64,000 nt of DNA from Oscillospiraceae bacterium (GTDB lineage: Bacteria; Bacillota; Clostridia; Oscillospirales; SIG627). Position 1 is the first letter of the stretch. Each line of letters opens with the position of its first letter. Location: NCBI GenBank assembly GCA_015063605.1, contig SVTV01000012.1, forward strand, positions 1-64,000, given 5' to 3'. A program made the position numbers and the translations under genes. Shown here in pieces: positions 25,926-58,864 of this stretch. The notes beneath the pieces are model-generated. The model was not told the origin of the DNA. It did not search any database and was given only the letters and a program-made list of their open reading frames with translations.

Positions 25926-27325
<1,400 letters not shown>

Positions 27326-28166: not shown

Positions 28167-28169
28167 GGC

Positions 28170-30184: not shown

Positions 30185-30683
30185 TTTCTTCACCTATTTT
30201 ACTGATAAAGGAATCTATCATCTGCTTATGATCATCCGTATTGATCTCTCTTTCAAGCACTTTTTCTGCTATGAGAGCGGAGACCTCTGCAATTTCCTTC
30301 TTTATGCCGTCCTCTGCCTTTGATATTTCGAGGGCAGCCTCTTCCTTTGCCTGACGCACGATAATATCAGCCTTTGACTTTGCATCGGCTATTATCTCAT
30401 TTTCTCTTGCATGGGCAATATCAACAGCGGATTGTATCACATTATCCGCTTCCGCTTTTGCATTTGACAATTTTTCTTCGTAAGCCGCCCTATCGGACAA
30501 AGCTTTTCTTTTAGCTTCCTCAGCATCATTATACTGTCCGTCAATCGCTGCCTGACGGGCGTTGAGCACATTCTTAACGGGTGTGTACAAAAACTTTTTT
30601 ATAAGCAAAAAAAGTATAAGAAGATTGAGAAGCGAAGCCAAAGTCTGCCAAATGTTTATAGAAATAATATCTAATGTTGGCAT
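30168..30683 (-). CDS. atpF: F0 ATP synthase subunit b
   Basis: A 171-residue peripheral stalk protein with one N-terminal membrane helix (residues about 10-28, IWQTLASLLNLLILFLLIKK) and a long charged coiled coil, the standard b-subunit layout. Only one b-type gene is present, so the stalk is a homodimer. It precedes atpH with a short overlap. Confidence 0.95.
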   Translation of the reverse strand: MPTLDIISINIWQTLASLLNLLILFLLIKKFLYTPVKNVLNARQAAIDGQYNDAEEAKRKALSDRAAYEEKLSNAKAEADNVIQSAVDIAHARENEIIADAKSKADIIVRQAKEEAALEISKAEDGIKKEIAEVSALIAEKVLEREINTDDHKQMIDSFISKIGEENADNK

Positions 30684-38251: not shown

Positions 38252-40237
38252 TCACTCTATTACTGCATAGATACCCGAACCGGAAATATCAAACTTGACA
38301 ATATATCCGTTTTCTGTCTTTGTTATTTCAACATCTCTTGCTCCGCCGAATTCATAGGATTTTACCTTGCCTTCACGGAAAGCGGGAAGATCCTTACCCG
38401 TAATTTCTATCTCATATACGTGATCGGTGATCTGGCTTTCAATCTTATCGAGAACCTTGGTTCCGAATGTTGATATCCACTTATGAGGAACGCCCGTCAA
38501 AGCGGTATTCATTATATGGAGAATGAGTCTGCCGTCAGATTCTACCTTTGCACGGAACACTCTTCTCTTATCGCCCTTCAATACCTTGACTGTGGGAACT
38601 ATCAAGCCCTCTTCAATAAGCCTCGGAAGATCCGCAGAACCGTTGACAATATAAAGTCCGTCATATTTTACGCTGAGAAGCTCTTCGGAGAGTGCTTTTT
38701 CACGCTCATAACCATTTTCGTCGTAAAGTCCGAAAGGAAGGGTCATAATAAGCTTTCCGCCGTGTGAAAGATATGTCTTTATCGCTTCAAACTGTGCATC
38801 GGATACGCACGCATTGCTTTCCATAACGATAGGTGTATCCTCGGTAAGAAGTGCTTCGGCATCAGCCAATTCTCTGTATCTTACAAATCTGTAATCTACA
38901 TTATTTCTTACAAAGCTCTGTGCCCATCCGTTTACGAGAGTCCATACCTCTTCGCCCTTTTCGTTTTTCCATCCGTTCATTCTGTTGTATCTGCTGTTTA
39001 CAAGACGAACATTAAGAACATTTTCACACTTCAAGGGATCGATGGGGCTGTTTGCTTCTTCCCAACGGTAAATGGGAGTTACAAGATCTTCTTCCTTGGG
39101 AAGATCATCGGGGACATCGTCCAGACGGCCTGCCATTGTGCTTGACCAGTTGGTTGCACCCCAGAAGCGTGCAAGAGCCCATCCGAAATAAGCACTATCT
39201 TCAAATGTTGTATAGCTCAGTGCTATTGCGGGAGCATTGCCCATCTTCTTCGCAATGTCTCTCTGCTGCATTGCCTCGGCATCCTTAGATACCCAATTTA
39301 CAGCATTGGATATAAGACCGCAGTTTTCAAGCATAACAAGGTCAAGAGTATCGGCTGCACTTTCAAGATCAAGAGAAAGAGCATTGAGCACCATGGGACC
39401 TGTAGCGGAGCAGCAGGTGAAGAGAGGAATATTACCGACGGTTTCCTTAACCATCTTAATATGATCGTTTATGGAATCGGTCCTCATTTTAAGGTAAGAT
39501 CTGAACGCAGGGCTCTTATAATTACCCCATGTATACGGATGACCGGAGGTATCACCCCAAAAATCCTTATCGTCGAGAGAAGGTATCTCATAACCGTAAT
39601 CTCTTCTGAAGCGTTCTCTGCAGTACTCGCATCCGCAAACGGTAAGTCCGCCGTATTCACACATATCATCGACTTCTATTGCATCTATCGGAACTTCGGC
39701 AATAAGTCTTTCCAGATATTTCTTATGCATATCGAGAAAACCGGGATTATTGTGGCAGAACAATTCAGCCTGATAATTGGGTGTATAGCCTCTTGAACCG
39801 TCTCTGAAATCGACCTCGCAGATATCCCAGAATCTGTGTCCTTCATACTGTGCGAATTCAGCCGCCTTGAAATCCTTGTGGAGAAGGATGTGGTGGCGGT
39901 GGGATCTGTGAAGCTTATAAAATTCATCAAGTCCTCTGGGTCTTTCGATAAGGTTGCAGGAATAATGCTCAACGAACTTTATTCCGTACTTATGAAGCTC
40001 ATCGCAAACATCCTTAAGATATCCGTGAACGTTCTGAAAATAATCCGCATAGTCAAAACGCATATGCAAACCGTAATTCATTACCGCATCGATACCGGCA
40101 TCATGAAAAGCCTTTGCACGCTTTTTTATCTTATTCTTTACCGTTATATCGGGCCAGAGAACGACATCGACATCATTCCACCAGCTCGCCATTCTTTTCG
40201 GTTTAAATTCCGAGTTATACTGTCTTTTAGGTTCCAT
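38252..40237 (-). CDS. Uncharacterised glycoside-hydrolase-like protein
   Basis: A 661-residue cytosolic protein with a probable N-terminal TIM barrel (residues about 20-400: KAFHDAGIDAVMNYG, IKFVEHYSCN, DICEVDFRDG, AIEVDDMCEYGG, CGCEYCRERFRRDYGYEIP). A beta-galactosidase-trimerisation-like Rossmann domain follows (about 440-560: ELADAEALLTEDTPIVM, YLSHGGKLIMTLPFG) and then a beta C-terminal domain. This domain order recalls GH42-type enzymes, but the sequence is not a typical GH42. Glu/Asp residues in AIEVDDM and DICEVDF are catalytic candidates. It lies 52 bases after the transglutaminase-like gene. Confidence 0.7.
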   Translation of the reverse strand: MEPKRQYNSEFKPKRMASWWNDVDVVLWPDITVKNKIKKRAKAFHDAGIDAVMNYGLHMRFDYADYFQNVHGYLKDVCDELHKYGIKFVEHYSCNLIERPRGLDEFYKLHRSHRHHILLHKDFKAAEFAQYEGHRFWDICEVDFRDGSRGYTPNYQAELFCHNNPGFLDMHKKYLERLIAEVPIDAIEVDDMCEYGGLTVCGCEYCRERFRRDYGYEIPSLDDKDFWGDTSGHPYTWGNYKSPAFRSYLKMRTDSINDHIKMVKETVGNIPLFTCCSATGPMVLNALSLDLESAADTLDLVMLENCGLISNAVNWVSKDAEAMQQRDIAKKMGNAPAIALSYTTFEDSAYFGWALARFWGATNWSSTMAGRLDDVPDDLPKEEDLVTPIYRWEEANSPIDPLKCENVLNVRLVNSRYNRMNGWKNEKGEEVWTLVNGWAQSFVRNNVDYRFVRYRELADAEALLTEDTPIVMESNACVSDAQFEAIKTYLSHGGKLIMTLPFGLYDENGYEREKALSEELLSVKYDGLYIVNGSADLPRLIEEGLIVPTVKVLKGDKRRVFRAKVESDGRLILHIMNTALTGVPHKWISTFGTKVLDKIESQITDHVYEIEITGKDLPAFREGKVKSYEFGGARDVEITKTENGYIVKFDISGSGIYAVIE

Positions 40238-44257: not shown

Positions 44258-45682
44258 TTATTTTACGACGGTACGCTTCTCGATGCCGAAAATATTATCG
44301 TATGTCTTCATTTTCTCGCCCGTAATAACGCTGTAATTATACTGATTTACGGGATTCAACAGAATATTATGGAAAAATGTATAGTGCTCCACGGGTACGC
44401 CGCGCACATGAAAAGGATTCATGGGGGAAAGGAATGTATTATTATACATTTCAACGTATTTCCCCGCTATATTTGTACCGTCTCCTCTGTCTCTGCCGCC
44501 GTGCATATCGTAAACATGATCGAGAAAATCTCCCATTTCAATGTTATGCCTTGCGATATAATATGTATCGGCAGTACCTGAGCCGGCTATGGAATGGCGG
44601 TTGAAATTGCAGAGATTATATTCCACTATACCGCCGCCTCCGACAAACTGAATGCCGTAGCCCAAGCCTTTTATCTGATTATGGTGAACGTAATTGTGAT
44701 GGAAGAGGTGATCGTCACCGTAAACACAGACCGCACTGTATGAAAAGCCTGACAACTCGCAGTTATCTATCTCTACATTGTTGCCGTCAACGATTATTCC
44801 GAGAACTACTGTATAGCGGTAAAAATAGCTGCTTCCCGGAGGATTCGGGACAGAAAAAGCGCGGTAGTGATGTTCAACGTGCTGCAAACCGTCGGGGCCT
44901 TGAAAAGCCAGACCTGTAATGCGTGAATCATCGGCGCATGTTATAAGCTTTGTAGTTGTAAAGGGAGGAACGACGCCTGAGCCTACTATCCTGCCTCCCG
45001 TGGAAACAGAACCGTCCTCACGTACATATCCTCTGTCGGATGCTAAGGTCACACCTTTATTGAGGCAAATATGGAATCCTCCGTTTTCGGCATCGGGCAT
45101 CTCCATAGTAAAGTCTATAGTCACATCGGAAGGAATAAAAATAACCTCTCCGGGCTGTGCTTTTTTCGATGCCTCAACAAGCTCCGTATAGGAATGTACT
45201 ATATAGTCGCCTGTTGTGATAATGTCATCGTAGCCTATGCCTCCTCCGATGGGAGGAACATCTTCAGCCGCATATGCACCGTAAACGGTATCACCGACGG
45301 CAATTGACAAAGAATCGTAATATTTCAAATAATTAGAATATGATGCCAATTCAATTACCGCATCTTCAATAATGGGATATATTTCCTTGGGATCGAAGGA
45401 GCCCGACTTCTCTTTTGCATATTCAAGCTTATTTTTTACATATTCCGTATCTCCGTACCAATTGGATGTAAGTATATCCGGGTAAACGGGTACATCGCTT
45501 TTGAAGTTTTCCGCAGGAAAGCTATCGACTCTGTGTGGGATTAGTTTTGCATCGCCCGATACGTTTGCCGCAATCTCCGAATCATCGGAAATGAGAAAGC
45601 TTCCCGTTACAAAACCGCCTACAAGACTTAATATAGAAATGATCGTTAAAAATAATGCTGTTGATGCTTTTGATCTGAACAC
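44258..45682 (-). CDS. Beta-helix array member 1 (membrane-anchored)
   Basis: A 474-residue protein, promoter-distal member of the ten-gene array. One N-terminal hydrophobic segment (about residues 6-30, LFLTIISILSLVGGFVTGSF) anchors or exports it. A helical region and the shared GGGIGYDDIITTGDYIV segment follow, then a right-handed parallel beta-helix (GVTLASDRGYVREDGSVSTG, ITGLAFQGPDG, VEIDNCELSGFS, YVHHNQIKGLGYG). The family core is MHGGRDRGDGTNIAGKYVEM. GTG 45682 is chosen because AAGGAG lies 8 bases upstream, inside the longer open frame starting at 45706. Subgroup A with the next two genes. Function unknown; a lyase or glycan-binding surface role is inference. Confidence 0.82.
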   Translation of the reverse strand: MFRSKASTALFLTIISILSLVGGFVTGSFLISDDSEIAANVSGDAKLIPHRVDSFPAENFKSDVPVYPDILTSNWYGDTEYVKNKLEYAKEKSGSFDPKEIYPIIEDAVIELASYSNYLKYYDSLSIAVGDTVYGAYAAEDVPPIGGGIGYDDIITTGDYIVHSYTELVEASKKAQPGEVIFIPSDVTIDFTMEMPDAENGGFHICLNKGVTLASDRGYVREDGSVSTGGRIVGSGVVPPFTTTKLITCADDSRITGLAFQGPDGLQHVEHHYRAFSVPNPPGSSYFYRYTVVLGIIVDGNNVEIDNCELSGFSYSAVCVYGDDHLFHHNYVHHNQIKGLGYGIQFVGGGGIVEYNLCNFNRHSIAGSGTADTYYIARHNIEMGDFLDHVYDMHGGRDRGDGTNIAGKYVEMYNNTFLSPMNPFHVRGVPVEHYTFFHNILLNPVNQYNYSVITGEKMKTYDNIFGIEKRTVVK

Positions 45683-45748
45683 AACCGCCGCTCCTTGAAA
45701 ATTCACTTAATAATACTTGAAAGATATACGGTAACAAGCTTTTGATAG

Positions 45749-47158
45749 CTACTTAACCACCGTCTGCTTTTCTATACCGAAAATATTATCGTATATCTTC
45801 ATTTTTTCACCCGTAAGTACACCGTAATTATATTGATTGACGGGATTTAAAAGAATATTGTGGCAAAATGTATAATATTCAACAGGCACTCCGCGTATAT
45901 GAAAGGGTCTGCTTGCGGTAAGAAAAGTATTATTATACATTTCAACATACTTTCCCGCTATATTTGTTCCGTCTTTTCTGTCCGCACCGCCGTGCATATC
46001 GTAAACGTGGTCGAGTGATTCGCCCATATCCACATTATACCTTGCGGTATAGTAGCTGTCGCCGTAGCCCGATCCCGCTATGGAATGGCGGTTGTAATTG
46101 AAAAGATTATATTCGATAAGACCGCCGCCGTGACCGAAGCTTACACCGTATCCGAGACCGTTTATCTGATTATGATGTATATAATTATGGTGGATATAAC
46201 ATTCATATGCTGAAACGCCGATTGCATAAGATGAAAATCCCGAAAGCTCGCAATTGTCTATCTCCACATTGTCTCCCAGGATCGAAACGCCTCCCGCAAT
46301 CGGAAATCTGTAGTAATAATCATGCCCGGGAGCGTTTATAACGGAGAACGAACGGTAATGATGCTCAAGATGTCTGTTTCCATCGGGTCCCTGAAGTGTG
46401 ATACCCGTGATCCTTGCATCCTTATTGCAATAGACAAAACCCGTAGTTATGGAAGGGGTATCGATACCGCATCCGTAAAGCTTCGCACCCGTGGAGACAG
46501 TTCCGTCTTCACGTACATAGCCTCTGTCGGATGCCAGCGTTACACCTTCATTAAGATACACGTAATAGCCTTTATTATCCGCATCCTTTATTTCCATTGT
46601 AAGATCGATGGATACATCGGAAGGAATGAATATCACCTCACCCGAGGATGCTTTTTTACAGGCATCGAGCAGCTCGGTGTACGATCTTACTATGTAATCT
46701 CCTGTAGTGTGAATATCGGGATATCCGACACCGCCGCCAAAAGTCGGCACTCCTTCTTTTGTATATGCACCGTAAATCGTATCCCCCTTCGTTATCGACA
46801 AGGTATCCATGTACTTAAGATAGTTTGAATAGGAAGCCAAAGATCCGTATGCGCTGTTAACATAGTAATAAACGTTTTCTGCGTTGAGCTTATCCGCTCC
46901 CTCCATGGCACTTTCAAGCATCTTTTTAACATACTCTGTATCGGGATACCAATTGGACGTAAGTATCTCGGGGTACAGTGCCGTGTCGGTCTCAAAGAAA
47001 TATGCGGGATGGCTTTCCAAGGACGGAGGCTCAGCGATAGGATGTCTTATCGTTTCGCTTTCGGTATTTTCATCAAAGACTACATTTCCGAGAGCATAAC
47101 CTCCCCAAAGACAGGACAACAAAATAATTACCGTTAAAAAAACCGAAATGATCCTCAT
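45749..47158 (-). CDS. Beta-helix array member 2 (membrane-anchored)
   Basis: A 469-residue paralogue with an N-terminal hydrophobic anchor (residues 3-25), no clear signal-peptidase site and no C-terminal sorting motif. The helix core carries GGGLIEYNLFNYNRHSIAG and the family segment MHGGADRKDGTNIAGKY. It is closest to members 1 and 3: all three share EHHYR-SFSV/AFSV-type motifs and the end sequence YDNIFGIEK(Q/R)TVVK. This one has ITLQGPDGNRHLEHHYRSFS. It lies 66 bases upstream of member 1's GTG start. The RBS is a distant AAGGAGG. Confidence 0.84.
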   Translation of the reverse strand: MRIISVFLTVIILLSCLWGGYALGNVVFDENTESETIRHPIAEPPSLESHPAYFFETDTALYPEILTSNWYPDTEYVKKMLESAMEGADKLNAENVYYYVNSAYGSLASYSNYLKYMDTLSITKGDTIYGAYTKEGVPTFGGGVGYPDIHTTGDYIVRSYTELLDACKKASSGEVIFIPSDVSIDLTMEIKDADNKGYYVYLNEGVTLASDRGYVREDGTVSTGAKLYGCGIDTPSITTGFVYCNKDARITGITLQGPDGNRHLEHHYRSFSVINAPGHDYYYRFPIAGGVSILGDNVEIDNCELSGFSSYAIGVSAYECYIHHNYIHHNQINGLGYGVSFGHGGGLIEYNLFNYNRHSIAGSGYGDSYYTARYNVDMGESLDHVYDMHGGADRKDGTNIAGKYVEMYNNTFLTASRPFHIRGVPVEYYTFCHNILLNPVNQYNYGVLTGEKMKIYDNIFGIEKQTVVK

Positions 47159-47237
47159 TCTGATACTTCAAACCTCCTTGAAAAGCATTGATACGAAACA
47201 TAAACGGCATCTGACCGCATTACAATATTACAGCTTA

Positions 47238-48656
47238 CTATTTAACCACCGTCTGCTTCTCTATACCGAAAATATTGTCATATATCTTGACATTTTCACC
47301 GGTGAAAAAGCTGTAATTATAATTTCTTTTGGGATTTAAAACGATGTTGTGGTAGAAATTCTGATACTCTACGGGAACGCCTCTCATGTAATAAGGATTC
47401 ATGGGAGAAAGGAATGTATTATTATACATATCAACATATTTACCCGCAATATTTGTTCCGTCGCCTCTGTCACGTCCGCCGTGCATATCGAACATATGAG
47501 AAAGCGATTCGCCCATTTCCACATTGTATCTTGCCGTATAGTAGCTGTCCGCAGGACCGGAGCCGGCTATGGAATGGCGGTTATAATTGAAAAGATTATA
47601 TTCGATAAGACCGCCGCCGTGACCGAAGCATATTCCGTATCCGAGACCGTTAGTCTGGTTGTGATGGATATAGTTATGGTGGAAATAATTCTCATAGCTT
47701 GCAACGCTTACAGCCTGAGATGAAAAACCGGAAAGCTCGCAATTATCGATCTCCACATTATCGCCTCTGAGAAGGATACCCGAGCAAAGAGGGAAAAGGT
47801 AATAATAATCATGTCCGGGAGGGTTGCTTACGGAAAAAGCTCTGAAATGATGCTCGAGATGCTTGCTCGGATCAGGACCCTGCATCGTAATTCCCGTGAC
47901 ACGTGTATTCTTTTCACAATAAACGAAATTTGATGTTATCGAAGGGTTGACTATACCCGTTCCGTAAAGCTTTGCGCCTGTTGATATAGTACCGTCTTCA
48001 CGAACAAAGCCTCTGTCTGAGGCAAGAGTAACGCCTTCCTTAAGGTAGATATATGCTCCGCTCGGTGTTGCCTTCTGCTCCATGGTAAGATCCAAAGAAA
48101 CGTCTGAGGGGATGAATATTACTTCCCCTGACTTTGCTTTCTCGCAGGCTTCAACGATCTCGGCATATGTACGTACTACATAATCGCCTGTGGTGAATAT
48201 CTCATGATATCCCTTGCCGCCGCCTATGGGAGAGCTTCCCTCTTCCGTATAAGCTCCGTAAACGGTATTTCCGATCTTTACGGAAAGGGTATCCTCATAT
48301 TTCAAATAATTTGAATAAGAGCCCAAAGTGATAATAGCGTTTTCGACAAAATAATATGTATTTTCCGCATTGAGCTTCATCGCCTCGCTCTTTGCGCTTT
48401 CAAGCATATTCTTTACATATTCGGTATCCGCAAACCAGTTCGCCGTAAGAACATCGGGATCTATCACGGTATCATATTCATATGCATATTCGGGAAATGA
48501 CTCCACTGCGTGAGCCTTCAATCCGATTTCGGAAGGATTATCGGATACTTCATTTTTCGGTAAAACTGCATTTCCAAAAAGGTATCCGCCCCAAAGTGCA
48601 ACTAAGGAAATTACGGTCGTTATCAACACATATGTTTTTTTCATAGATTTAACCAT
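47238..48656 (-). CDS. Beta-helix array member 3 (membrane-anchored)
   Basis: A 472-residue paralogue of subgroup A. The N-terminal anchor is YVLITTVISLVALWGGYLFG (about residues 9-28). Conserved blocks: SPIGGGKGYHEIFTTGDYVV, GVTLASDRGFVREDGTISTG, ITMQGPDPSKHLEHHFRAFS, NQTNGLGYGICFGHGGGLIE and MHGGRDRGDGTNIAGKYVDM. Position 48656 is an ATG; a second ATG four codons later is equally plausible, since GAAAGG lies upstream of both. The ITTGDYIVxxxxEL pattern preceding the helix recalls the opening of polysaccharide-lyase beta-helices, but no lyase catalytic Lys/Arg set could be confirmed. Confidence 0.84.
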   Translation of the reverse strand: MVKSMKKTYVLITTVISLVALWGGYLFGNAVLPKNEVSDNPSEIGLKAHAVESFPEYAYEYDTVIDPDVLTANWFADTEYVKNMLESAKSEAMKLNAENTYYFVENAIITLGSYSNYLKYEDTLSVKIGNTVYGAYTEEGSSPIGGGKGYHEIFTTGDYVVRTYAEIVEACEKAKSGEVIFIPSDVSLDLTMEQKATPSGAYIYLKEGVTLASDRGFVREDGTISTGAKLYGTGIVNPSITSNFVYCEKNTRVTGITMQGPDPSKHLEHHFRAFSVSNPPGHDYYYLFPLCSGILLRGDNVEIDNCELSGFSSQAVSVASYENYFHHNYIHHNQTNGLGYGICFGHGGGLIEYNLFNYNRHSIAGSGPADSYYTARYNVEMGESLSHMFDMHGGRDRGDGTNIAGKYVDMYNNTFLSPMNPYYMRGVPVEYQNFYHNIVLNPKRNYNYSFFTGENVKIYDNIFGIEKQTVVK

Positions 48657-48700
48657 GCCTTTCTAATTTTTCCGTACCCACAGTAGAACATACTGCAAAA

Positions 48701-50158
48701 TTATTGTATACGAAGTTCTCCCGTCTTAAGATCATATACATTGTCCTTTATCTCAACATTTTTACCGTTAAGACGAGACCAATTATAATCGGTCACTTTG
48801 TTTAGCAACACATTATTCCTGAAAAACTGATATTCAAGAGGAACACCTCTCAGAAGATAGGGATTTGCATCGCAAAGGAACGTGTTGTTATACATTTCAC
48901 AATACTCACCCGCAATATTTGTTCCGTCGGTCCTTCCGTAGTCGCCGCCTCCGTGCATATCGAAGCAATGCTGTAAGGATTCTCCCATTTCAACATTGAA
49001 GCGTGCGATATAAGCCGTGGGAGGCTTACCCGTGGAGGCTATAGAATGACGGTTGAAATTGAACAGATTATATTCAACTATCGATACGGCACCGTCTCCG
49101 TGAGAAACGCCGTATCCTCTTCCCTGAGTCTGATTGTGATGGATATAACAATGGTGAACGTGTATATCCTTTATTTCGCCGTGGTTGATAAAGATCGCCG
49201 CATGACCGAAGCCGGTGATCTCGCAATTATCTATTTCGACGCCGCTTTCCATAATAACAAATCCATCGGTAGAAGCTGTTGTAAGCTTATTGTAGTAAGC
49301 GTGCATCGGAGGATTCGGAACGGAAAAAGATCTGTAATGATGCGGCAGACAACGGTTGGGATTTGCTCCCTGCAGGGTCAGACCCGTTATACGGGCATTT
49401 CCGTAAACCTCAAATACTCTGCCGGACAAATGTCTTTGTATAAAGACAGCGCCTCTTGAAACGGTTCCGTCTTCCCTCACATAACCTCTGTCGGATGCAA
49501 GTGTGACACCTGCGGGAATCTTCAGAACGCCCTTCTCTGCCGAGATCATGGTAAGCTCGATTGCCGCATCGCCTTTTATAAATATTACTTCGCCGCTTTT
49601 AACGGTCTCTAACGCTTCCAGAAGCTCTTTTGCATTTGATACAATATGATCGCCCGTGGTAATGATAGCCTTATAACCAATACCGCCTCCGATGGGCGAA
49701 TCACCTTCATTTACATAAGCGCCGTACTTTTTTCCTTCTCGTTCAACATTCAATGTGTCAAGATAATCGGTATACCTTGAATATGATCCGGCTTCTCTTA
49801 CCGACTCGTAAAGAAGCTCCAAAGTCTTTGTGTTATCTTCGCTATTCTTTGCTTCCACAAGCATTGAATGTATCTTCTCATAATCTCCGTACCAAGTATT
49901 TGAGATCACAAGAGGGGAAAAGGAGGTACCGTATTCCACATTCTCTGCAGGGTATTCGGTTACCTCTGCACAAGGAAGCGACGTTTTGATATTAGTTTTA
50001 TCTTTGTTCATGATTTCACCATTGGGAATAATATCTTGAGAAGGAATTATAAACAAAGCTGCAGAAGATCCCGGCAGCAATGTTATCAATAAGGCACACA
50101 AAATACCCATTGCAAGGCTTACCGCACATACAGCGGCAATTTTCAAATTCTTATTCAT
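48701..50158 (-). CDS. Beta-helix array member 4 (intermediate type)
   Basis: A 485-residue paralogue, the longest of the array. The N-terminal anchor is IAAVCAVSLAMGILCALLIT (about residues 7-26), with a longer polar neck. Its core departs slightly from the consensus: MHGGGDYGRTDGTNIAGEY contains a two-residue insertion. The C-terminal strand YDLKTGELRIQ replaces the usual IFGIxxxTVVK. It also has SIVEYNLFNFNRHSIAS and LQGANPNRCLPHHYRSFSV. GGAGAGCAG is the RBS. It sits between subgroup A (members 1-3) and subgroup B (members 5-8) in both position and sequence. Confidence 0.83.
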   Translation of the reverse strand: MNKNLKIAAVCAVSLAMGILCALLITLLPGSSAALFIIPSQDIIPNGEIMNKDKTNIKTSLPCAEVTEYPAENVEYGTSFSPLVISNTWYGDYEKIHSMLVEAKNSEDNTKTLELLYESVREAGSYSRYTDYLDTLNVEREGKKYGAYVNEGDSPIGGGIGYKAIITTGDHIVSNAKELLEALETVKSGEVIFIKGDAAIELTMISAEKGVLKIPAGVTLASDRGYVREDGTVSRGAVFIQRHLSGRVFEVYGNARITGLTLQGANPNRCLPHHYRSFSVPNPPMHAYYNKLTTASTDGFVIMESGVEIDNCEITGFGHAAIFINHGEIKDIHVHHCYIHHNQTQGRGYGVSHGDGAVSIVEYNLFNFNRHSIASTGKPPTAYIARFNVEMGESLQHCFDMHGGGDYGRTDGTNIAGEYCEMYNNTFLCDANPYLLRGVPLEYQFFRNNVLLNKVTDYNWSRLNGKNVEIKDNVYDLKTGELRIQ

Positions 50159-50187
50159 CTGCTCTCCGTTTATAATTTAGTTATATG

Positions 50188-51564
50188 TCATTCTCTTACG
50201 ATCACACCGCTTATACCGAAAATATTATCATATATTTCGACATTTTCACCTGTCAATCTATTTGAATTAAAAGATTCATAACGATTGAGAACATTGTTGT
50301 GATAGAAAACCTGATATTCTTCGGGAACGCCTCTGAGCCAATAAGGGTGGGCATCGGAAAGAAATGTATTATTATATATTTCGCAATATGTTCCCGCTAT
50401 ATTGGTTCCGTCTCCTCTGTCTACACCGCCGTGGATATCAAAATTAGTACTGAGTGAATCACCCATTTCGACGTTAAAGCGGGCAATATATCCCGTTTTG
50501 GGCGCACCGTTGGCGGCAATTGAATGGCGATTGAAATTAAACAGACAGTATTCTACGATGGATTCGGAATCGGTTTCATGGCATACTCCGTAACCGAGAC
50601 CTTGTGCCTGATTATGGTGTATATAGCAATACTGTACAAGAAGATTTTTTACGCTGTTGTAAGGAATTATGCCCGCATAACCGAATCCCGTTATTTCGCA
50701 GTTATCTATTCGTACATCGTTACCAACAGCCAAAATACCGTAGGTCGATACGTACCCGAGGGTATAGTAATATGCTTTTCCTCTGGGATTTGATCCGTAA
50801 TTAGCTCTGTAATGATGAGCTATGTGTTGATTGGGATCGCCGCCCATGAGAGTAAGTCCCGTGATCCTTCCGCCTTCTTGCACGTCAATGGCTCTTCCCG
50901 AAGCGGATACTGTTCTGAGAACCGCACCGTATGATACATTCCCGTTGTCGCCCACATGACCTCTGTCAGAAGCAAGAGTAACTCCCTGCTTTACTATAAG
51001 GTGATTAGAGGTTATATCTATGGAAGCATCACCTTTTATAAATACGACTTCCCCGCTTTTTGCCTTTTCCAAAGCATCGAGAAGTTCGTCAATATTTGAA
51101 ACAATATAATCACCTGAGGTAATGATATCTTTATATCCCACACCTCCGCCGATAGGCGAATCACCATCATTCACGTAAGCACCGTACTTTGTTCCGTTAA
51201 CTTCAAGACATATCTTTTCTTTATATTGATAATAACGGGAATACGAACCCATATTATTGATCGCATTCCAGATGGAATTCGCAATAACTTCATGCTTCAC
51301 AGAACTTTTTACTGCTCTGTTTTTCTGGGATTCAAGTATACTGTGGATGCTTTCGGCATCGTAATACAAAGCATTGGAGAGAATATCGGGCACAAATCTT
51401 ATTCCGTATTCAACTTCTTCGGCCTCAAAGCTCTCAATGTACAGCGACTCAAGAAATATTTTCTTTCCTTCCATACCAAACGGAAGCAAAAATGAAATCA
51501 AAGCACCCAATATCAGAGAAGATAAAGATATAATGATCGCAGTAAGTTTTTTGTCCATTGTCAT
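50188..51564 (-). CDS. Beta-helix array member 5
   Basis: A 458-residue paralogue. The N-terminal hydrophobic segment is about residues 7-26 (LTAIIISLSSLILGALISFL). Core blocks: SPIGGGVGYKDIITSGDYIV, GVTLASDRGHVGDNGNVSYG, LMGGDPNQHIAHHYRANY, NQAQGLGYGVCHETDSESIV and IHGGVDRGDGTNIAGTYCEI. It has the GGDPNQHxAHH motif of subgroup B. GAGGTG stands before two candidate ATGs (51564 and 51558); the second has the better spacing. It lies 29 bases upstream of member 4. Confidence 0.83.
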   Translation of the reverse strand: MTMDKKLTAIIISLSSLILGALISFLLPFGMEGKKIFLESLYIESFEAEEVEYGIRFVPDILSNALYYDAESIHSILESQKNRAVKSSVKHEVIANSIWNAINNMGSYSRYYQYKEKICLEVNGTKYGAYVNDGDSPIGGGVGYKDIITSGDYIVSNIDELLDALEKAKSGEVVFIKGDASIDITSNHLIVKQGVTLASDRGHVGDNGNVSYGAVLRTVSASGRAIDVQEGGRITGLTLMGGDPNQHIAHHYRANYGSNPRGKAYYYTLGYVSTYGILAVGNDVRIDNCEITGFGYAGIIPYNSVKNLLVQYCYIHHNQAQGLGYGVCHETDSESIVEYCLFNFNRHSIAANGAPKTGYIARFNVEMGDSLSTNFDIHGGVDRGDGTNIAGTYCEIYNNTFLSDAHPYWLRGVPEEYQVFYHNNVLNRYESFNSNRLTGENVEIYDNIFGISGVIVRE

Positions 51565-51633
51565 TCACCTCAAATGGCTGTTATACCGATACGGCGGTGA
51601 TAAAAACCGCCGTATCAGAGATCAAAAAACACT

Positions 51634-53052
51634 TTATTTTCTTACGGTCTTGTTCTCGATATCAAAGATATTGTCATATATCTTGACATTCTTGGCAACA
51701 AGCTTGCCCGTATTATACTGAGAGTACTTATTTACGCATACGTTATGGTAGAACAACTGATAATCCTCAGGAATACCGCGCATCCAATAGGGGTTGGTAT
51801 CAGCAAGGAAGGTATTATTATACATTTCGCAATAAGTACCTGCAATATTTGTTCCGTCTTTTCTGTCAGATCCGCCGTGGATATCAAAGCAATGGCTGAG
51901 TGAGCTTCCCATTTCGATATTGAATCTTGCGATATAACCCGTTGTGGGAGCACCCGTTGCCGCTATGGAATGGCGGTTGTAATTGAAGAGACAGTATTCT
52001 ATTATCGATTCGGTTCCGTTGTGATGGGAGATACCGTATCCAAGACCGTTTGCCTGGTTATGGTGTATATAGCAATGGGTAACGTGAGTTCCCTTTACTT
52101 CCTGCTTCAAGAATATAGCACCGTGACCGAAGCCTGCGATCTCACAATTATCTATGGTAACATTATTTCCGACTACATATATACCGTCCGTCTGAAGGGA
52201 TGAAAGCTTATAGTAGTAGGAATGGCCGGGAGCATTTGCCACGCTGAAAGCTCTGTAATGGTGCGCAAGATGCTGATTGGGATCTCCGCCGGTAAGGATA
52301 AGACCCGTAACACGAGAGCCCTCGGAGGCATATATAGCCTTATTTGACATTGAGGAAGAATAGATCTTTCCGCCCGTGGAAATGGTTCCGTCCTCATGCT
52401 CGAAGCCGCGGTTCGATGCAAGTGTAACACCCGGCTTAACGTCAAGATATCCGCCCGAGCTGACAATTGTGGATATATCTATTCCGGCGTGCTCCTCAAG
52501 ATAAATAACCTGACCGCTCTGAGCCTTATCAAGTGCATCCTTAAGCTCGGAAAGCGTATCTACAACATAATCACCCGTAGTGAATATCTCTGTATATCCG
52601 CCGCCACCGCCTATGGGAGCCGCACCCTCTTCAACGTATGCACCGTATTTGACGCCGTTCACCTCGATGCAAAGATCCTTTTCGTACTGATAGTATCTTG
52701 AGAAGGATCCGAGCTCTGTAAGAGCCTCGTTGAGCTTTTCGACAACGTTTTTATTATTTGTATTACCCTTTACAACCTTTTCCTTTTGATCGCGAAGAAT
52801 ATTCATTACGCTTTCGGTATTACCGAACCATACGTTGGAAACTATATTCGGAACGAATTTATAGCCGTAATCAACATTCTCAGCCTCAAAGGCTTCTATC
52901 GATACAGGTGTAAGTGCCGCTTTTTTTGATCCTTTTTCACTGCCATGCTCTGTTGCGCCTCCTTCGGGAGCTTTGATCAGCAAAGCTCCGAGAAGGATAC
53001 CGATAACGAGAGATACAACAGCGGAAGCGATCGGTATTAAATTTGATTTCAT
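51634..53052 (-). CDS. Beta-helix array member 6
   Basis: A 472-residue subgroup B paralogue. The N-terminal anchor is residues 5-26 (LIPIASAVVSLVIGILLGAL), followed by a charged neck (EHGSEKGSKKA). Core: APIGGGGGYTEIFTTGDYVV, GVTLASNRGFEHEDGTISTG, LTGGDPNQHLAHHYRAFSVA, NQANGLGYGISHHNGTESII and IHGGSDRKDGTNIAGTYCEM. GGAGG lies 5 bases before the ATG. It is very similar to members 7 and 8, suggesting recent duplication. Confidence 0.84.
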   Translation of the reverse strand: MKSNLIPIASAVVSLVIGILLGALLIKAPEGGATEHGSEKGSKKAALTPVSIEAFEAENVDYGYKFVPNIVSNVWFGNTESVMNILRDQKEKVVKGNTNNKNVVEKLNEALTELGSFSRYYQYEKDLCIEVNGVKYGAYVEEGAAPIGGGGGYTEIFTTGDYVVDTLSELKDALDKAQSGQVIYLEEHAGIDISTIVSSGGYLDVKPGVTLASNRGFEHEDGTISTGGKIYSSSMSNKAIYASEGSRVTGLILTGGDPNQHLAHHYRAFSVANAPGHSYYYKLSSLQTDGIYVVGNNVTIDNCEIAGFGHGAIFLKQEVKGTHVTHCYIHHNQANGLGYGISHHNGTESIIEYCLFNYNRHSIAATGAPTTGYIARFNIEMGSSLSHCFDIHGGSDRKDGTNIAGTYCEMYNNTFLADTNPYWMRGIPEDYQLFYHNVCVNKYSQYNTGKLVAKNVKIYDNIFDIENKTVRK

Positions 53053-53116
53053 AATGCCTCCGTGTAATTCTATATTAGAGGATACCGCCAGGAAGCGTAA
53101 AACGCTTCAGATTAAA

Positions 53117-54526
53117 TCATTTAACAACCGTTTTGTTCGCAATACCGAAGATATTATCAAACATTTTAACTTTGTCTGCAACAAGCTTACCCTTATTGTA
53201 AGCACTCAAGGGCTGCTTGACAACGTTATTATGGAATTCCTGATACTCCTCGGGGATACCTCTGAGCCAATAGGGATATGTATCCGCAAGGAAGGTATTG
53301 TTATACATTTCGCAGTAAGTTCCCGCTATATTCGTTCCGTCGCCTCTGTCGCTGCCGCCGTGAACGTCGAAGCAGTGGCTGAGGGAGCTTCCCATTTCAA
53401 CATTGAATCTTGCGATATAACCTGTTGTGGGTGCGCCTGTAGCCGCTATTGAATGGCGGTTATAATTGAAGAGACAATATTCTACTATAGATTCGGTATT
53501 ATTGCCGTGGCATACACCGTATCCGAGACCGTTTGCCTGATTGTGGTGGATGTAGCAATACTGTACGAGAACATCCTTTACACCGGGAGCGAGATTGACT
53601 GCCGCATGACCAAATCCGCCGAGCTCACAGTTATCAACTCTTACGCCGTTGCCGATAACGTGGATACCGTCAGTGGAAACGGATGTTAGTCTGTAATAGT
53701 AAGAGGAACCGCCCATGCCGCCCTGGAAAGCTCTTGCATGATGTGCAAGGTGCTGATTGGGGTCACCGCCGGTAATTACAAGACCTGTTACACGGGAGCC
53801 CTCGGAAGCATATATAGCTTTATTTGCCATAGAGGAAGAGTATATTCTGCCGCCTGTAGCAATGGTTCCGTCTTCATTCTTATAGCCTCTGTTGGAAGCA
53901 AGAGTAACACCGGGCTTGAGATCGAGATATTTACCTACGTTTACAAGAGAGGATATATCGATAGCCGCATGACCTTCAATGAATATCACTTCGCCACTCT
54001 GCGCCTTGGAAATGGCATCTGTAAGCTCGGAGAATGTATCTACAACGTAATCACCGGTTGTAAATATTTCTTCGTAATCGCCTCCGCCTCCTATGGGTGC
54101 CTCACCCTCTTCAACGTAAGCACCGTACTTTACACCGTCTACCTCGATGCAAAGCTGATCCTCGTAGTCATAATATCTTGAAAAAGAACCGAGCTCGGTC
54201 AAAGCGTTGTCAAGCTGACCCAAAAGTGTTTTTTCGGTCGATTTACCGTCTACCACCTTTGTTTTCTGGTTTTCAAGGATCTTATAGACCTGTTCCGCAT
54301 TTCCGAACCAAATATTCGAAACGATATTGGGAACGAATGTATAGCCGTAATCAACAGCCTCTGCGGGATACTCTATGAGCTCCGGAGGAGTTATCGGCTG
54401 ACCTTTATTGTTTTTGATAATTCCGATAGTATTGGAATCTTCTCCTCCGGTAAGAAGAGTACCTGCCAATATGCCCGCAACGAGGCATATTACAGAGACC
54501 GCTATCGGTAATATTTTATTCTTCAT
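53117..54526 (-). CDS. Beta-helix array member 7
   Basis: A 469-residue subgroup B paralogue with an N-terminal anchor at residues 4-25. Core: APIGGGGDYEEIFTTGDYVV, GVTLASNRGYKNEDGTIATG, ITGGDPNQHLAHHARAFQGG, NQANGLGYGVCHGNNTESIV and VHGGSDRGDGTNIAGTYCEM. It differs from members 6 and 8 mainly in the loop after HHARAF, where FQGGMGGS replaces FSVANAPGH. CAGGAG is well placed before ATG. Confidence 0.84.
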   Translation of the reverse strand: MKNKILPIAVSVICLVAGILAGTLLTGGEDSNTIGIIKNNKGQPITPPELIEYPAEAVDYGYTFVPNIVSNIWFGNAEQVYKILENQKTKVVDGKSTEKTLLGQLDNALTELGSFSRYYDYEDQLCIEVDGVKYGAYVEEGEAPIGGGGDYEEIFTTGDYVVDTFSELTDAISKAQSGEVIFIEGHAAIDISSLVNVGKYLDLKPGVTLASNRGYKNEDGTIATGGRIYSSSMANKAIYASEGSRVTGLVITGGDPNQHLAHHARAFQGGMGGSSYYYRLTSVSTDGIHVIGNGVRVDNCELGGFGHAAVNLAPGVKDVLVQYCYIHHNQANGLGYGVCHGNNTESIVEYCLFNYNRHSIAATGAPTTGYIARFNVEMGSSLSHCFDVHGGSDRGDGTNIAGTYCEMYNNTFLADTYPYWLRGIPEEYQEFHNNVVKQPLSAYNKGKLVADKVKMFDNIFGIANKTVVK

Positions 54527-54585
54527 TTATTTCTCCTGAAACTGCGTATAAGAAAAGCTCTTATCACGCAACAAATTTCCTAAAA

Positions 54586-55998
54586 CTACTTTTTTACTGT
54601 TTTGGTCTTGATGCCGAAAATATTGTCATAAATATTGACATTCTTTCCGACAAGCTTACCTACATTATAGCTTGTATACGGATTTATGCAGACATTTCCG
54701 TAAAAGTTCTGATATTTCTCGGGTACACCTCGCAACCAATAGGGATTGGTATCGGCAAGAAATGTATTGTTATACATCTCGCAGTATGTTCCCGCAATAT
54801 TTGTACCGTCTTTTCTGTCGGCACCGCCGTGGATATCGAAGCAATGGCTGAGAGAGCTTCCCATTTCTATATTGAATCTTGCAATATATCCGGTCGTGGG
54901 AGCACCCGTTGCCGCTATGGAATGGCGGTTATAATTGAAAAGATTATATTCTATGACAGATTCCGCATCGTCCCAATGGCAGACACCGTAACCGAGTCCG
55001 TTAGCTTGATTGTGGTGGATGTAGCAATACTTTACAACGGCATTTTTTACTCCTATGTAAAGATTTACGCCCGCATCTCCGAATCCTGCTATCTCGCAAT
55101 TATCCACGGTCACATTATTTCCCACAACATGTATTCCGTCCGTAGCCACGGATGTAAGGCTGTAATAATATGAATGACCGGGTGCATTTGGAGCACTGAA
55201 GGCTCTGTAATGGTGTTCAAGATGCTGATTAGGATCTCCGCCTGCGAAGATAAGACCCGTGACACGGGAATTATCATAAGCATACAAGGCTCTGTTTGCC
55301 ATGGAGGTGCTGTATATCTTACCGCCCGTGGAAACTGTACCGTCTTCATAGGTGTGACCGCGGTTTGATGCTAAGGTTACGCCCTCTTTCAGCTCAAGGT
55401 ATTTACCCTGAATAACGAGTGTAGTAATATCTATTGCGGCATTGCCTTCTATGAATACTACCTCACCGCTCTGCGCCTTGGAAAGAGCATCCGTAAGCTC
55501 GGCAAGAGTTCTGACTACATAGTCACCCGTGGTGAATATTTCGCTGTAGCCCTTACCGCCTCCTATGGGAGGGGCACCTTCCTCAACATATGCACCGTAT
55601 TTTTTGCCGTCTACCTCGATGCAAAGCTCGCTCTCATAATCGTAATATCTCGAAAAAGATCCGAGCTCCATCAAGGCTTCATTGATCTTTTTCGAAACCG
55701 TACCTGCATTTACGGTATTTTTCAAAAGCCCGGATTTCTGCATCTCAAGTATCTGCCAGACCGCTTCGGTATCACCGTACCAAAGATCGGAAACAATATT
55801 CGGTACAAAAAGATAGTCATAATCGACCGTTTCGGCAGGATATTCGGACACTTCCTCTGCTGAAAGGAGGGTCGCATCATCCTTTATCTCGGAAGCATTT
55901 TCAATATCCGTTATGCTTCCCGTAAACGCTGTGCCGGTAATTATACCGACCAGTAAAAACACCACCGCACATATAACGGGCATAAGTAAATTTTTCAT
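54586..55998 (-). CDS. Beta-helix array member 8
   Basis: A 470-residue subgroup B paralogue. The N-terminal anchor is residues 3-28 (LLMPVICAVVFLLVGIITGT). Core: PPIGGGKGYSEIFTTGDYVV, GVTLASNRGHTYEDGTVSTG, FAGGDPNQHLEHHYRAFSAP, NQANGLGYGVCHWDDAESVI and IHGGADRKDGTNIAGTYCEM. AGAGG precedes ATG by 7 bases. It ends FGIKTKTVKK, close to members 6 and 7. Confidence 0.84.
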   Translation of the reverse strand: MKNLLMPVICAVVFLLVGIITGTAFTGSITDIENASEIKDDATLLSAEEVSEYPAETVDYDYLFVPNIVSDLWYGDTEAVWQILEMQKSGLLKNTVNAGTVSKKINEALMELGSFSRYYDYESELCIEVDGKKYGAYVEEGAPPIGGGKGYSEIFTTGDYVVRTLAELTDALSKAQSGEVVFIEGNAAIDITTLVIQGKYLELKEGVTLASNRGHTYEDGTVSTGGKIYSTSMANRALYAYDNSRVTGLIFAGGDPNQHLEHHYRAFSAPNAPGHSYYYSLTSVATDGIHVVGNNVTVDNCEIAGFGDAGVNLYIGVKNAVVKYCYIHHNQANGLGYGVCHWDDAESVIEYNLFNYNRHSIAATGAPTTGYIARFNIEMGSSLSHCFDIHGGADRKDGTNIAGTYCEMYNNTFLADTNPYWLRGVPEKYQNFYGNVCINPYTSYNVGKLVGKNVNIYDNIFGIKTKTVKK

Positions 55999-56023
55999 AT
56001 TATACCTCTTAATTTTTGGAGGA

Positions 56024-57271
56024 TCACTTCAGCACTTCCATATCGTCAATGCCGAAGACATTTTCATAGATCTCGTACTTTTCGCCTTCAAGATAATGAT
56101 AAAGATCACGTTTTCCGAACACGATATTATGATGAAATCTGTGATATTCCTCGGGAACTCCTCTGACGTGATATGGGCTTCGCTCGGAAAGAAGCGTGTT
56201 ATCGTGGATATCGCAATAGGTACCTGCAATATTCGTACCGTCTTTTCTGTCTCTTCCGCCGTGCATATCATAAACATGATCGAGACATTCTCCCATATTT
56301 ATATTATATGAGGCATCGTAGCCCGTAACGGGAGCTCCGCTGTTTGCAACATCGTGGCGGTTAAAATTGAAAAGATTGTACTTTATGACAGAGGTCGCGC
56401 CTCTTCCGTGAGATACACCGTAACCGAGACCTTTGCCTTGGTTATGGTGGATATAATTGTGATGTATATAGGCATCGGCGGCATTTGCACTGAGACTTAC
56501 AGCCGCGCAGGGAAATCCCGTTATCTCACAGTTATCCACCTCAAGGTTTTTTCCCGTAACCACAAAACCGCTCATGCTTATAGCACCCAGGGTGAAATAA
56601 TACTTATGCGGCTCGGGTTTATCGGTATAGAAGGACCTCGTATGATGTGCTACATGCTTATCGGGATCGCATCCCTTTAATCTCAGTCCTGTGATCCTCA
56701 CATCGGAATCGACCTTAAACATATGCTTCCAATCGAGTGAGTGAACGCATATCATCCCGCCGAGAGAAAGTCGTCCGTCATCAAAGCATCTGCCTCTGTC
56801 GGAAGCAAGTGTTATACCTTCCTTTATTAACAAAGGGTTATTTCCCTCTATCAAAGCGGAAACGTCAATTACCGCATCGCTTCTTATGAAGATCGTCTGA
56901 CCTTTTTCGGCTTTGTCCAAAGCTTCCTTTAATTCCGAAGCGTTACTTACCGTATAGTCGCCGGATGTGAATATATCATTATATCCTACTCCGCCTCCTA
57001 TACACGGTTCGCCTTCCTCGGTATATGCACCATAGCGCACTCCGTCTTTTTCAAAAGAAAGCTTATCCTTGTATTTCGGATATTTTGAAAAGCCGCCGAA
57101 TTCATTAATAGCATCATCGAGCTTTTCGAGTACCTCTTCCCTGTCGAAGCTTTTGCTCTCGAGAGAAGTCTTTATATCCGAAAGCACGTTGAGGACATTT
57201 TCGGGATCTCCGTATAATATTCCCGTAAGTATCTTCCCGTAAGCGGGAAAGGCTTTACTGTTACAATTCAT
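56024..57271 (-). CDS. Beta-helix array member 9, lacking the N-terminal anchor
   Basis: A 415-residue paralogue whose beta-helix is intact (PCIGGGVGYNDIFTSGDYTV, GITLASDRGRCFDDGRLSLG, KGCDPDKHVAHHTRSFYTD, NQGKGLGYGVSHGRGATSVI, MHGGRDRKDGTNIAGTYCDI). The first about 50 residues, including the hydrophobic anchor, are missing. The frame is closed by TGA 12 bases before the ATG, and no convincing RBS is seen. It may be N-terminally truncated and unexported, or translated by reinitiation from the upstream gene. The C-terminus FGIDDMEVLK is also divergent. Confidence 0.72.
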   Translation of the reverse strand: MNCNSKAFPAYGKILTGILYGDPENVLNVLSDIKTSLESKSFDREEVLEKLDDAINEFGGFSKYPKYKDKLSFEKDGVRYGAYTEEGEPCIGGGVGYNDIFTSGDYTVSNASELKEALDKAEKGQTIFIRSDAVIDVSALIEGNNPLLIKEGITLASDRGRCFDDGRLSLGGMICVHSLDWKHMFKVDSDVRITGLRLKGCDPDKHVAHHTRSFYTDKPEPHKYYFTLGAISMSGFVVTGKNLEVDNCEITGFPCAAVSLSANAADAYIHHNYIHHNQGKGLGYGVSHGRGATSVIKYNLFNFNRHDVANSGAPVTGYDASYNINMGECLDHVYDMHGGRDRKDGTNIAGTYCDIHDNTLLSERSPYHVRGVPEEYHRFHHNIVFGKRDLYHYLEGEKYEIYENVFGIDDMEVLK

Positions 57272-57328
57272 AATTCGTTGATATCAACGGTCACTGCCGT
57301 TTGAATCGATTTTGATAAAAATCGGTTA

Positions 57329-58726
57329 TTATTCAGCTGCAGCTTCGCCTGTTGCAGCCGCCTTTTCGTTCCATGTCATAGCATAAGGAGCTGTGATATT
57401 GAACGCATTGTTTCTGAATGTGGAATTTGCCTTAATAGCTTCTCTGTACGCTTCGGGACCGTAGAAAAGGTTTGCATCGTACTGAGATTCGTCAAGAGAG
57501 AAGAGGTTGTTCTCTACTGTGTAAGTACCGGGCATACCCTCAAATCTTATGGGAAGAGTGGAACCGAGAACCGTGTTGTTCTTAATTATAACGGATGTAC
57601 CGCTCTGCTTCATACCTTCAACAATGCTGGAGTTAACGCTGGAGGGCTTGATGTAGAACATAGCTCCGAGACTGTTACCTACTTCAACATTGTTGTATGC
57701 CTCGAAGGAGCCTGCTGTTGCGCCGCTCATTGTGATGGCATTTCTGCAGTTGCTGAAAAGGTTGTACTCAAGCTTTACATTTGCCTTTGTAACGAGAACG
57801 CCGTTGCCGTTACCCGCACCTCTTACATGGTGGATATAGCAATGGTGGATATGGATGGTACCAACATTTGTGGAAATACCCGATCCGTTGAAACCGGAGA
57901 TCTCACAGTTATCGATAACGAGATTGTCGCCCTGAGCAACAAAGCCTACTGTTGTTGAGTACTTTTCTTCGCCTTCATGTGTTGTGGCATCGGAGCCCTG
58001 AAGAACGAGACCTGTTATACGAACATTGTGATGTGTCTTGAACATTGTGGAAAGGTGAAGAGAATACTTCAATACTCCGCCGCCGGATCCGCGGTGTCCT
58101 CTGTCGGAGGCAATGGTAACGCCCTGCTTGATCTGACAGTTGGGATAATCGGTTACAGCCATATCGGAGATATCGATGACAGCACCGGACTGAATGAAAA
58201 TAACGTCGCCCTCCTTGGCATTCTTTACTGCCGCATAGAAGGTGTTATCGTCTGTAACAATAAAGTCACCCTTTGTGAAAACATCCTTGTAGCCTTCACC
58301 GCCTCCTATGGGACCCTGTTCGTTGCCTGCAGCACCGTAAACGGTTCCGTCTTCACCGGTTATGGATGTCTTATCTATGTAGTCATAGTAATAACCGAGC
58401 TGTTCAAGCTCTCTTATCGCACTTTCAAGCTCGCTTGCAAGAGTCTTGTCATTGAGCTTGCCGTTTTCTATACCGTATCTAATAAGGTTAAGCTTTTCAA
58501 AAAGCGCATTGTTATCCGGGAAAAAGCTTCTTGAAGTCACGGATATACCTTCTGTCATGTTTTTCAAATCAAGTACAACTCCTTCACTTACATTTCCTTC
58601 GCCGGTTGAAGTTGTTCCGGGAAGATCGCTGCTGTTATTACCGCCCTTAATGAGAGCTACGGTGCCAAAACCGATTGCAAAGCAAAGCACTGCGGCAATA
58701 CAAGACAATAAAACTTGTTTTTTCAT
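57329..58726 (-). CDS. Beta-helix array member 10 (promoter-proximal, divergent)
   Basis: A 465-residue paralogue, first gene of the array transcript. The N-terminal hydrophobic segment spans about residues 5-27, followed by a Ser/Thr/Gly-rich neck. It keeps the shared fold (GPIGGGEGYKDVFTKGDFIV, GVTIASDRGHRGSGGG, ITGLVLQGSD, VIDNCEISGFNGSGI, YIHHVRGAGNGNGV). It lacks the family core: HGGxDRxDGTNIAG is replaced by FYIKPSSVNSS and SGTSVIIKNNTVL. If those residues are catalytic or ligand-binding, this member has lost or changed the function. ATG 58726 is preferred over GTG 58735; AGGGTG lies upstream. An Ala/Glu-rich tail ends it. Confidence 0.83.
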   Translation of the reverse strand: MKKQVLLSCIAAVLCFAIGFGTVALIKGGNNSSDLPGTTSTGEGNVSEGVVLDLKNMTEGISVTSRSFFPDNNALFEKLNLIRYGIENGKLNDKTLASELESAIRELEQLGYYYDYIDKTSITGEDGTVYGAAGNEQGPIGGGEGYKDVFTKGDFIVTDDNTFYAAVKNAKEGDVIFIQSGAVIDISDMAVTDYPNCQIKQGVTIASDRGHRGSGGGVLKYSLHLSTMFKTHHNVRITGLVLQGSDATTHEGEEKYSTTVGFVAQGDNLVIDNCEISGFNGSGISTNVGTIHIHHCYIHHVRGAGNGNGVLVTKANVKLEYNLFSNCRNAITMSGATAGSFEAYNNVEVGNSLGAMFYIKPSSVNSSIVEGMKQSGTSVIIKNNTVLGSTLPIRFEGMPGTYTVENNLFSLDESQYDANLFYGPEAYREAIKANSTFRNNAFNITAPYAMTWNEKAAATGEAAAE

Positions 58727-58835
58727 AAAAAACACCCTATAAACTCAAAAAAACATCATTCCCGTAGAATCAATTTCATTGAGTTTACCCTTTTAAAGAT
58801 TTACTTAATTGAAGCTTAAAAAGCTACTTACAGAA

Positions 58836-58864
58836 ATTATACATATTATTAACCGTTCTGTCAA
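58836..58864 (-). promoter_or_regulatory. Consensus promoter of the beta-helix array
   Basis: Minus-strand TTGACA (58859-58864) and TATAAT (58836-58841) separated by exactly 17 bases. It leaves a leader of about 100 bases before ATG 58726. No other promoter this strong was found inside the array. Confidence 0.85.

Follow-up and report, generated by a model that had tools for sequence, protein, structure and literature searches.

An operon-like array of ten predicted β-helix proteins, most of them anchored, with a conserved candidate active site and one stripped copy in an Oscillospiraceae genome

The window analysed here, a stretch of 64,000 nucleotides of contig SVTV01000012.1 from an Oscillospiraceae bacterium (GCA_015063605.1), carries ten ORFs arranged head to tail on the minus strand at 44258–58735. 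In order of coordinate they have 482, 469, 472, 485, 458, 472, 469, 470, 415 and 468 codons, and the gaps between them measure 42, 79, 44, 29, 69, 64, 59, 25 and 57 nt. An earlier, sequence-only reading of this DNA had described the same ORFs (415–485 codons, gaps of 25–79 bases) and ended the array at 58726; this is an ATG nine bases into an ORF that opens with GTG, and it is likely the start of gene 10. The ten proteins align with 58 invariant columns, and no further copies of the family occur in the 2.67-Mb genome. Alignment bears out that nine of the ten share an HGGxDRxDGTNIAG signature and an HHNQ motif; gene 10 lacks the signature. Hydrophobic N-terminal segments, previously claimed for most members, are present in eight intact genes and in gene 10, with none in gene 9. 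The typical architecture is a short N-terminal anchor, then a helical stretch and then a β-helix, and the proteins are predicted to be tethered at the cell surface. Twenty-four key residues, numbered throughout as in gene 6 without its initiator Met, served to score 158 domains or fragments: R214, R246, H264, R266, Y279, D300, N301, E303, H325, H329, H330, Q332, Y338, R359, H360, Y372, N377, H386, D389, H391, D395, R396, D398 and R424. The features of the locus are listed below, the anchors and β-helix domains as predicted.

44258..45706, minus strand: gene 1 (last in the array), anchored β-helix protein, 482 aa, 23 of 24 key residues
45749..47158, minus strand: gene 2, anchored β-helix protein, 469 aa, 24 of 24 key residues
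47238..48656, minus strand: gene 3, anchored β-helix protein, 472 aa, 24 of 24 key residues
48701..50158, minus strand: gene 4, anchored β-helix protein, 485 aa, 24 of 24 key residues, signature loop with a small insertion
50188..51564, minus strand: gene 5, anchored β-helix protein, 458 aa, 22 of 24 key residues
51634..53052, minus strand: gene 6, anchored β-helix protein, 472 aa, 24 of 24 key residues, the modelled member
51850..51888, minus strand: gene 6 signature FDIHGGSDRKDGT (F388–T400)
51970..51975, minus strand: gene 6 R359-H360, unchanged in intact domains and shared with the archaeal and gammaproteobacterial relatives
52054..52065, minus strand: gene 6 HHNQ motif (H329–Q332)
53117..54526, minus strand: gene 7, anchored β-helix protein, 469 aa, 23 of 24 key residues
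54586..55998, minus strand: gene 8, anchored β-helix protein, 470 aa, 23 of 24 key residues
56024..57271, minus strand: gene 9, intact domain with 24 of 24 key residues, no hydrophobic anchor
57329..58735, minus strand: gene 10 (first in the array), anchored, active-site set stripped, 10 of 24 key residues
58740..58787, minus strand: inverted repeat TAAACTCAA...TTGAGTTTA in the leader between promoter and gene 10
58836..58864, minus strand: σ70-type promoter TTGACA-17-TATAAT, 12 of 12 positions, about 100 bases upstream of gene 10

The perfect promoter site before gene 10 is consistent with the earlier proposal that one promoter serves all ten genes. Because a second promoter-like site, with 11 of 12 matching positions, lies immediately upstream of gene 4, we regard a single promoter as likely rather than proved. 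The leader inverted repeat is a perfect 9-bp repeat that occurs once in the genome, and it may be an operator or a leader hairpin across the ribosome-binding region; an Rfam scan of the window returned no RNA family. The flanks are ordinary, with a gene for an RNase III-domain protein (129 aa) and one for a transglutaminase-domain protein downstream of the array, and an Mrp-type ATPase, MgtC and transporters upstream. Elsewhere in the window, a 661-codon ORF at 38252–40237 (minus strand, the array's orientation) has no Pfam or NCBIfam match, and a group of minus-strand genes at about 25925–30683 includes an ATP synthase alpha/beta-type subunit at 28170–29657 (minus strand).

Structure prediction makes us confident that the array proteins are right-handed β-helices, as had been proposed from the sequence. 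The AlphaFold2 model of gene 6, built for 471 residues from 88 sequences, has this fold at pLDDT 89.3, and the core domain of a Planctomycete homologue was modelled at pLDDT 94.2. Compared with solved structures, the two models matched more than 400 chains at Z ≥ 8, mostly β-helices. The PL31 lyase 6kfn came first or tied first for both (Z 25.0/25.5, rmsd 2.8/2.5, 251/246 residues aligned), followed by the alginate epimerase/lyase 8ja4/8jaz and AlgE4/AlgE6 (Z 23.0–25.4). Other β-helix proteins matched at Z of about 21–24, so the lead of the PL31 and epimerase structures, 1 to 3 Z units, is a pointer to chemistry and not proof of it. Phage proteins also share the fold, and a Foldseek comparison with viral models, which gave generic tailspike-type matches, was set aside.

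Sequence searches placed the family nowhere more specific. The Pfam Beta_helix model (PF13229), a generic fold model without a function, has its cut-off passed by three of the ten array proteins, and most members fall below it. No GH28 or pectate lyase model matched any of the ten in Pfam at E up to 1, PDB searches with ten-member and 88-member profiles gave no significant match, PHROGs and NCBIfam yielded nothing useful, and a phage collection contained no match. Across the Pfam, NCBIfam and PDB profile searches there was thus no match to a characterised enzyme, and no described sequence family appears to cover the array proteins.

A small set of polar residues is nearly invariant in the family: Y338, R359-H360, Y372, N377, D389-x-H391 and, usually, R424. 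Our scan of genome contigs retrieved loci by the patterns DNCE..GF and HHNQ, and the constancy of these two motifs is therefore partly a selection effect, which does not touch the other residues; R359, H360, Y372, D389, H391, D395, R396, D398 and R424 lie outside both patterns and are near-constant across phyla. Haloarchaeal, Serratia and Aeromonas relatives keep Y338, R359, H360, Y372, N377, D389 and H391, whereas D395 and D398 are not retained in the archaeal and gammaproteobacterial proteins. Conserved asparagine columns occur at N301, N377, N412 and N436, many histidines are conserved, and no lysine column reaches 85% conservation in an alignment of 78 relatives. According to the strand list of the model, Y338, R359, H360, Y372, N377, D389 and H391 would sit at the same corner of consecutive coils (the ends of strands 327–331 and 354–358, the starts of 338–342, 360–364 and 388–390, and 421–423). 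This placement fits a groove, with the clustering of the residues deduced from the coil register.

The near-invariant polar set argues for an enzyme, and the array family very probably is one that is uncharacterised. The suggestion that a His/Asp/Arg cluster forms an active or binding site thus agrees with its conservation across phyla and in distant relatives, with tyrosine added to the cluster. Mean identity among the paralogues is 62% in the coils around the site and 29–37% at the N-terminus; since the site coils are the most conserved part, the nine intact copies probably act on similar substrates. For the same reason the idea that the paralogues provide a range of specificities is weakly supported, its favourable side being that the copies are old and each has been retained.

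We put at roughly even odds the reading that best explains these observations, namely that these are carbohydrate-active enzymes held outside the cytoplasm by a membrane tether, with a right-handed β-helix catalytic domain and uronate lyase or epimerase chemistry, and with gene 10 as a partner. Nine copies would each retain the same active site, lined up at a corner of adjoining coils. R359 and R424 would hold an acidic group on the substrate, which is most likely the carboxylate of a uronate, while H360 and H391 with Y372 and Y338, assisted by D389, would take up and donate protons. The outcome would be β-elimination or C5 epimerisation with no catalytic lysine, and the reaction would most likely take place at the cell surface, with acidic sugar polymers as substrate. 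The individual parts differ in strength: we hold with good confidence that the proteins are carbohydrate-active enzymes and, given that, find a lyase or epimerase distinctly likelier than a hydrolase. Glycoside hydrolases of the same fold and location, in which general acid–base catalysis falls to two of D389, D395, D398 and E303 and anionic sugars are bound by the arginines, are a serious if rather unlikely alternative. D389 and D398 are constant in the core family, D395 and E303 nearly so, and the fold matches GH28 polygalacturonases and GH110 at Z of about 22–24. However, the residues that archaeal and gammaproteobacterial relatives preserve are R359-H360, Y372 and D389-x-H391 rather than D395 and D398, and no GH model, GH28 included, scored above its Pfam cut-off.

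What the sequence-only reading overlooked is the nature of the tenth gene: it is a stripped copy, and other genomes have fused counterparts of it. Complete domains fall into two groups, intact (17–24 of 24 key residues) and stripped (at most 14), and gene 10 has lost H264, R266, Y279, Q332, Y338, H360, Y372, H386, D389, H391, D395, R396, D398 and R424. Many Clostridia homologues are two-domain proteins in which a stripped N-terminal domain is fused to an intact C-terminal one, a pattern seen in nearly every such protein except one (L118 in genome G003), whose C-terminal domain is matched only in part. In the tree, gene 10 groups with the N-terminal domains of the two-domain proteins L030 and L035 (SH-aLRT 98), apart from the intact genes, and by its sequence it is a free-standing relative of the stripped domain. 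Most two-domain homologues have a lipobox-like signal, whereas the window proteins have signal anchors. Gene 9, which lacks an anchor and a clear Shine–Dalgarno sequence, is in frame with gene 10, from which it is separated by a 57-nt gap (57272–57328) that begins directly after a tandem TAA TAA; together the two genes are laid out like the fused protein. Folding of this junction was no better than that of shuffled sequences. Given that the same stripped domain precedes an intact one in fused proteins of related Clostridia, we propose that gene 10 could be a non-catalytic partner or substrate-binding subunit at the start of the operon.

A broader formulation is offered tentatively, with the odds somewhat against it: the proteins may belong to a new, lysine-free R-H / Y / D-x-H CAZyme family of bacteria and archaea, with a pseudo-enzyme/enzyme pair in Clostridia that is either fused or split. 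On the same tentative footing, the pair would be fused in lipoproteins and split here into gene 10 and nine partners, and the active site would be one not found in described β-helix lyases, epimerases or hydrolases.

The contig scan found at least 76 family loci. Most belong to Bacillota, Planctomycetota, Hydrogenedentota, Gemmatimonadota, Latescibacterota, Armatimonadota and Poribacteria, and other phyla are represented by isolated cases; in all, homologues occur in about ten bacterial phyla and, more distantly, in haloarchaea and Gammaproteobacteria. The distant relatives (L125, L126, L127 and L128) are plasmid-borne, in Halocatena, Aeromonas, Haloarcula and Serratia, and the Haloarcula copy belongs to a surface-polysaccharide region, its neighbours being sulfatase-like, polysaccharide deacetylase and glycosyltransferase genes. 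Within the order of the source organism, the family is present in 11 of 394 genomes and 5 of 168 genera, a patchy occurrence. Some Gemmatimonadota, Latescibacterota and Poribacteria members (L056, L058, L075, L076, L085, L088, L090, L094, L098 and L099) have no signal peptide and start directly with the domain (MFGSEMEPLGQTW or MFNARP). They are probably cytosolic, judging by these N-termini, and the substrate of the family therefore need not be a polymer outside the cell.

Other Clostridia have tandem arrays too, as do two Armatimonadota-like genomes, so the earlier statement that no system of this form is described holds for the family and not for the arrangement. Genome G090 has about ten tandem members with short loops on one contig (L115) and genome G079 has six (L116); these lack most of H264, R266 and Y279 and retain the other key residues. 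Orthologous pairs link the two arrays, and therefore tandem arrays arose more than once and are kept. In the present array, genes 1–3 (SH-aLRT 100) and genes 6–8 (SH-aLRT 98) form clades, and the tree places homologues from L029, L030 and L035 within the set of array genes, which makes the array copies older than the split of those lineages. Pairwise dN/dS is 0.14–0.22 for the four paralogue pairs with computable dS, rough values given that dS is near saturation (1.6–2.3). The paralogues are thus old and under purifying selection.

These results bear on two readings that take the copies themselves as the point. Redundant amplification, with the copies raising the dosage of a single activity and gene 10 as a decaying duplicate, would suit the nearly identical key residues of the nine genes and the high conservation of the site region, but we consider it very improbable: the paralogues are old, with homologues of other genomes nested among them, orthologous pairs connect G079 and G090, and the frame of gene 10 is open, with relatives kept elsewhere as fused domains. 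Pneumococcal PfbA is a β-helix adhesin. Its fold matches at Z 22–23, and the array proteins are predicted surface proteins, so that the array could be imagined as a supply of variant adhesins or antigens, as the sequence-only reading suggested. Such variation is improbable in old paralogues under purifying selection (dN/dS about 0.15) in an array with no tandem or inverted repeats and no phase-variation repeats; moreover, the polar set is near-invariant across phyla and some homologues lack a signal peptide.

Gene neighbourhoods across genomes, which had been suggested as a check, were informative for single-copy homologues and not for the Clostridia arrays, which have no conserved partner genes. 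Single-copy homologues are found near Amidohydro_2, GFO/IDH/MocA, GH130, BNR, sulfatase, heparinase-like and 2-hydroxyacid dehydrogenase genes. Comparing adjoining genes with genes more than 5 kb away in the same loci, in small counts throughout, we found Amidohydro_2 in 5 of 112 neighbours (fewer than 2 or absent among the distal families listed), GH130 and BNR_2 in 3 each (absent among the distal families listed) and GFO/IDH/MocA in 4 (against 2 distal). Several families are thus commoner near the homologues than away from them, and the neighbours lean to sugar catabolism. In four Phycisphaerae-type loci (L061, L062, L063 and L070), the immediate upstream neighbour of the family gene encodes about 460 aa and is Ceramidase_alk-like in the two scanned individually; as a partner it was rejected, being specific to that lineage. 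An enzyme acting on something other than carbohydrate, or a metal-binding protein, would be either NosD-like or a lyase of small molecules, for example the β-helix DHS dehydratase 8wm1 (Z 22.4–22.8). Faint NosD-like scores, the structural match to 8wm1, the many conserved histidines and the members without a signal peptide would fit such a protein, yet we think it improbable, since the scores against the NosD copper family TIGR04247 are 17.9 and 23.1 bits, far under the cut-off of 300, most members are exported and the neighbours lean to sugar catabolism.

For the preferred reading of uronate chemistry, the source genome gives a mixed record: it encodes the uronate isomerase UxaC (contig C56:78492–79805), but KDPG aldolase (PF01081) was not found in it, which counts against this reading. 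The genome also has three further tandem clusters, of 3, 3 and 2 genes, of another β-helix family (PF12708/PF13229), one of them flanked on one side by a GH2 enzyme with a ROK regulator and on the other by a GFO/IDH gene:

L129:5035-9788, plus strand: second-family cluster
L130:4804-9199, minus strand: second-family cluster
L131:4874-8082, minus strand: second-family cluster

This second family aligns with both AlgE4 (hhalign P 2.2e-15) and the array family (P 7.7e-7), scores that β-helix repeats can inflate, and would link the array distantly to the epimerase/lyase group.

With a fixed active site, a range of about ten phyla and no described function, the family is a promising candidate for a new CAZyme class and of interest for the breakdown of acidic polysaccharides by bacteria of herbivore guts and sediments. 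The array offers nine natural variants of one active site and a natural inactive copy, a set suited to tests of specificity and of pseudo-enzyme function.

Among known systems, the PL31 lyase PsAly (6kfn) is the best structural match; it too is a secreted right-handed β-helix with an Asn ladder and conserved His, Arg, Tyr and Asp near the cleft. PsAly uses Tyr184 and Lys221 with a cation (PMC6796002). In contrast, the array family has no conserved lysine, judged by alignment and not by superposition, and no sequence match to PsAly.

The AlgE epimerases (AlgE4, 2pyg; AlgE6, 5lw3) also have a β-helix catalytic module and are the next-best folds (Z 23.0–24.6), and Azotobacter vinelandii encodes several extracellular paralogues, AlgE1–7, with differing product patterns (PMC12350332). 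Direct profile alignment of the array family with AlgE4 and AlgE6 gave no credible alignment (hhalign probability <3%), and the DPH motif of the AlgE site (Tyr149/Asp152/His154/Asp178) is absent from the conserved columns of the array family. Both families contain an RH that looks alike, but its alignment was inconsistent and we dropped it. The array proteins have no R-modules and are anchored, whereas AlgE enzymes are released. The PF12708 (Pect-lyase_RHGA_epim) proteins of the source genome (contigs C60, C55 and C4) are likewise tandem β-helix proteins with a remote profile match, but they form a separate family of about 480–550 aa with a DFGAxGDGxxDDT-type N-terminus absent from the array proteins.

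PL1 is also a β-helix family. In Dickeya, pelADE and pelBC are clusters of duplicated polysaccharide lyase genes (PMC10319131); they differ in having two to three genes, belonging to PL1 and being freely secreted, and the account of these clusters mentions no stripped member. We found no description of an array like the present one in the open-access literature searched. Clusters of β-helix carbohydrate enzymes are already known, in the Dickeya pel genes and the AlgE paralogue set; the family itself, the set of active-site residues and the pairing of stripped with intact domains appear to be new and undescribed.
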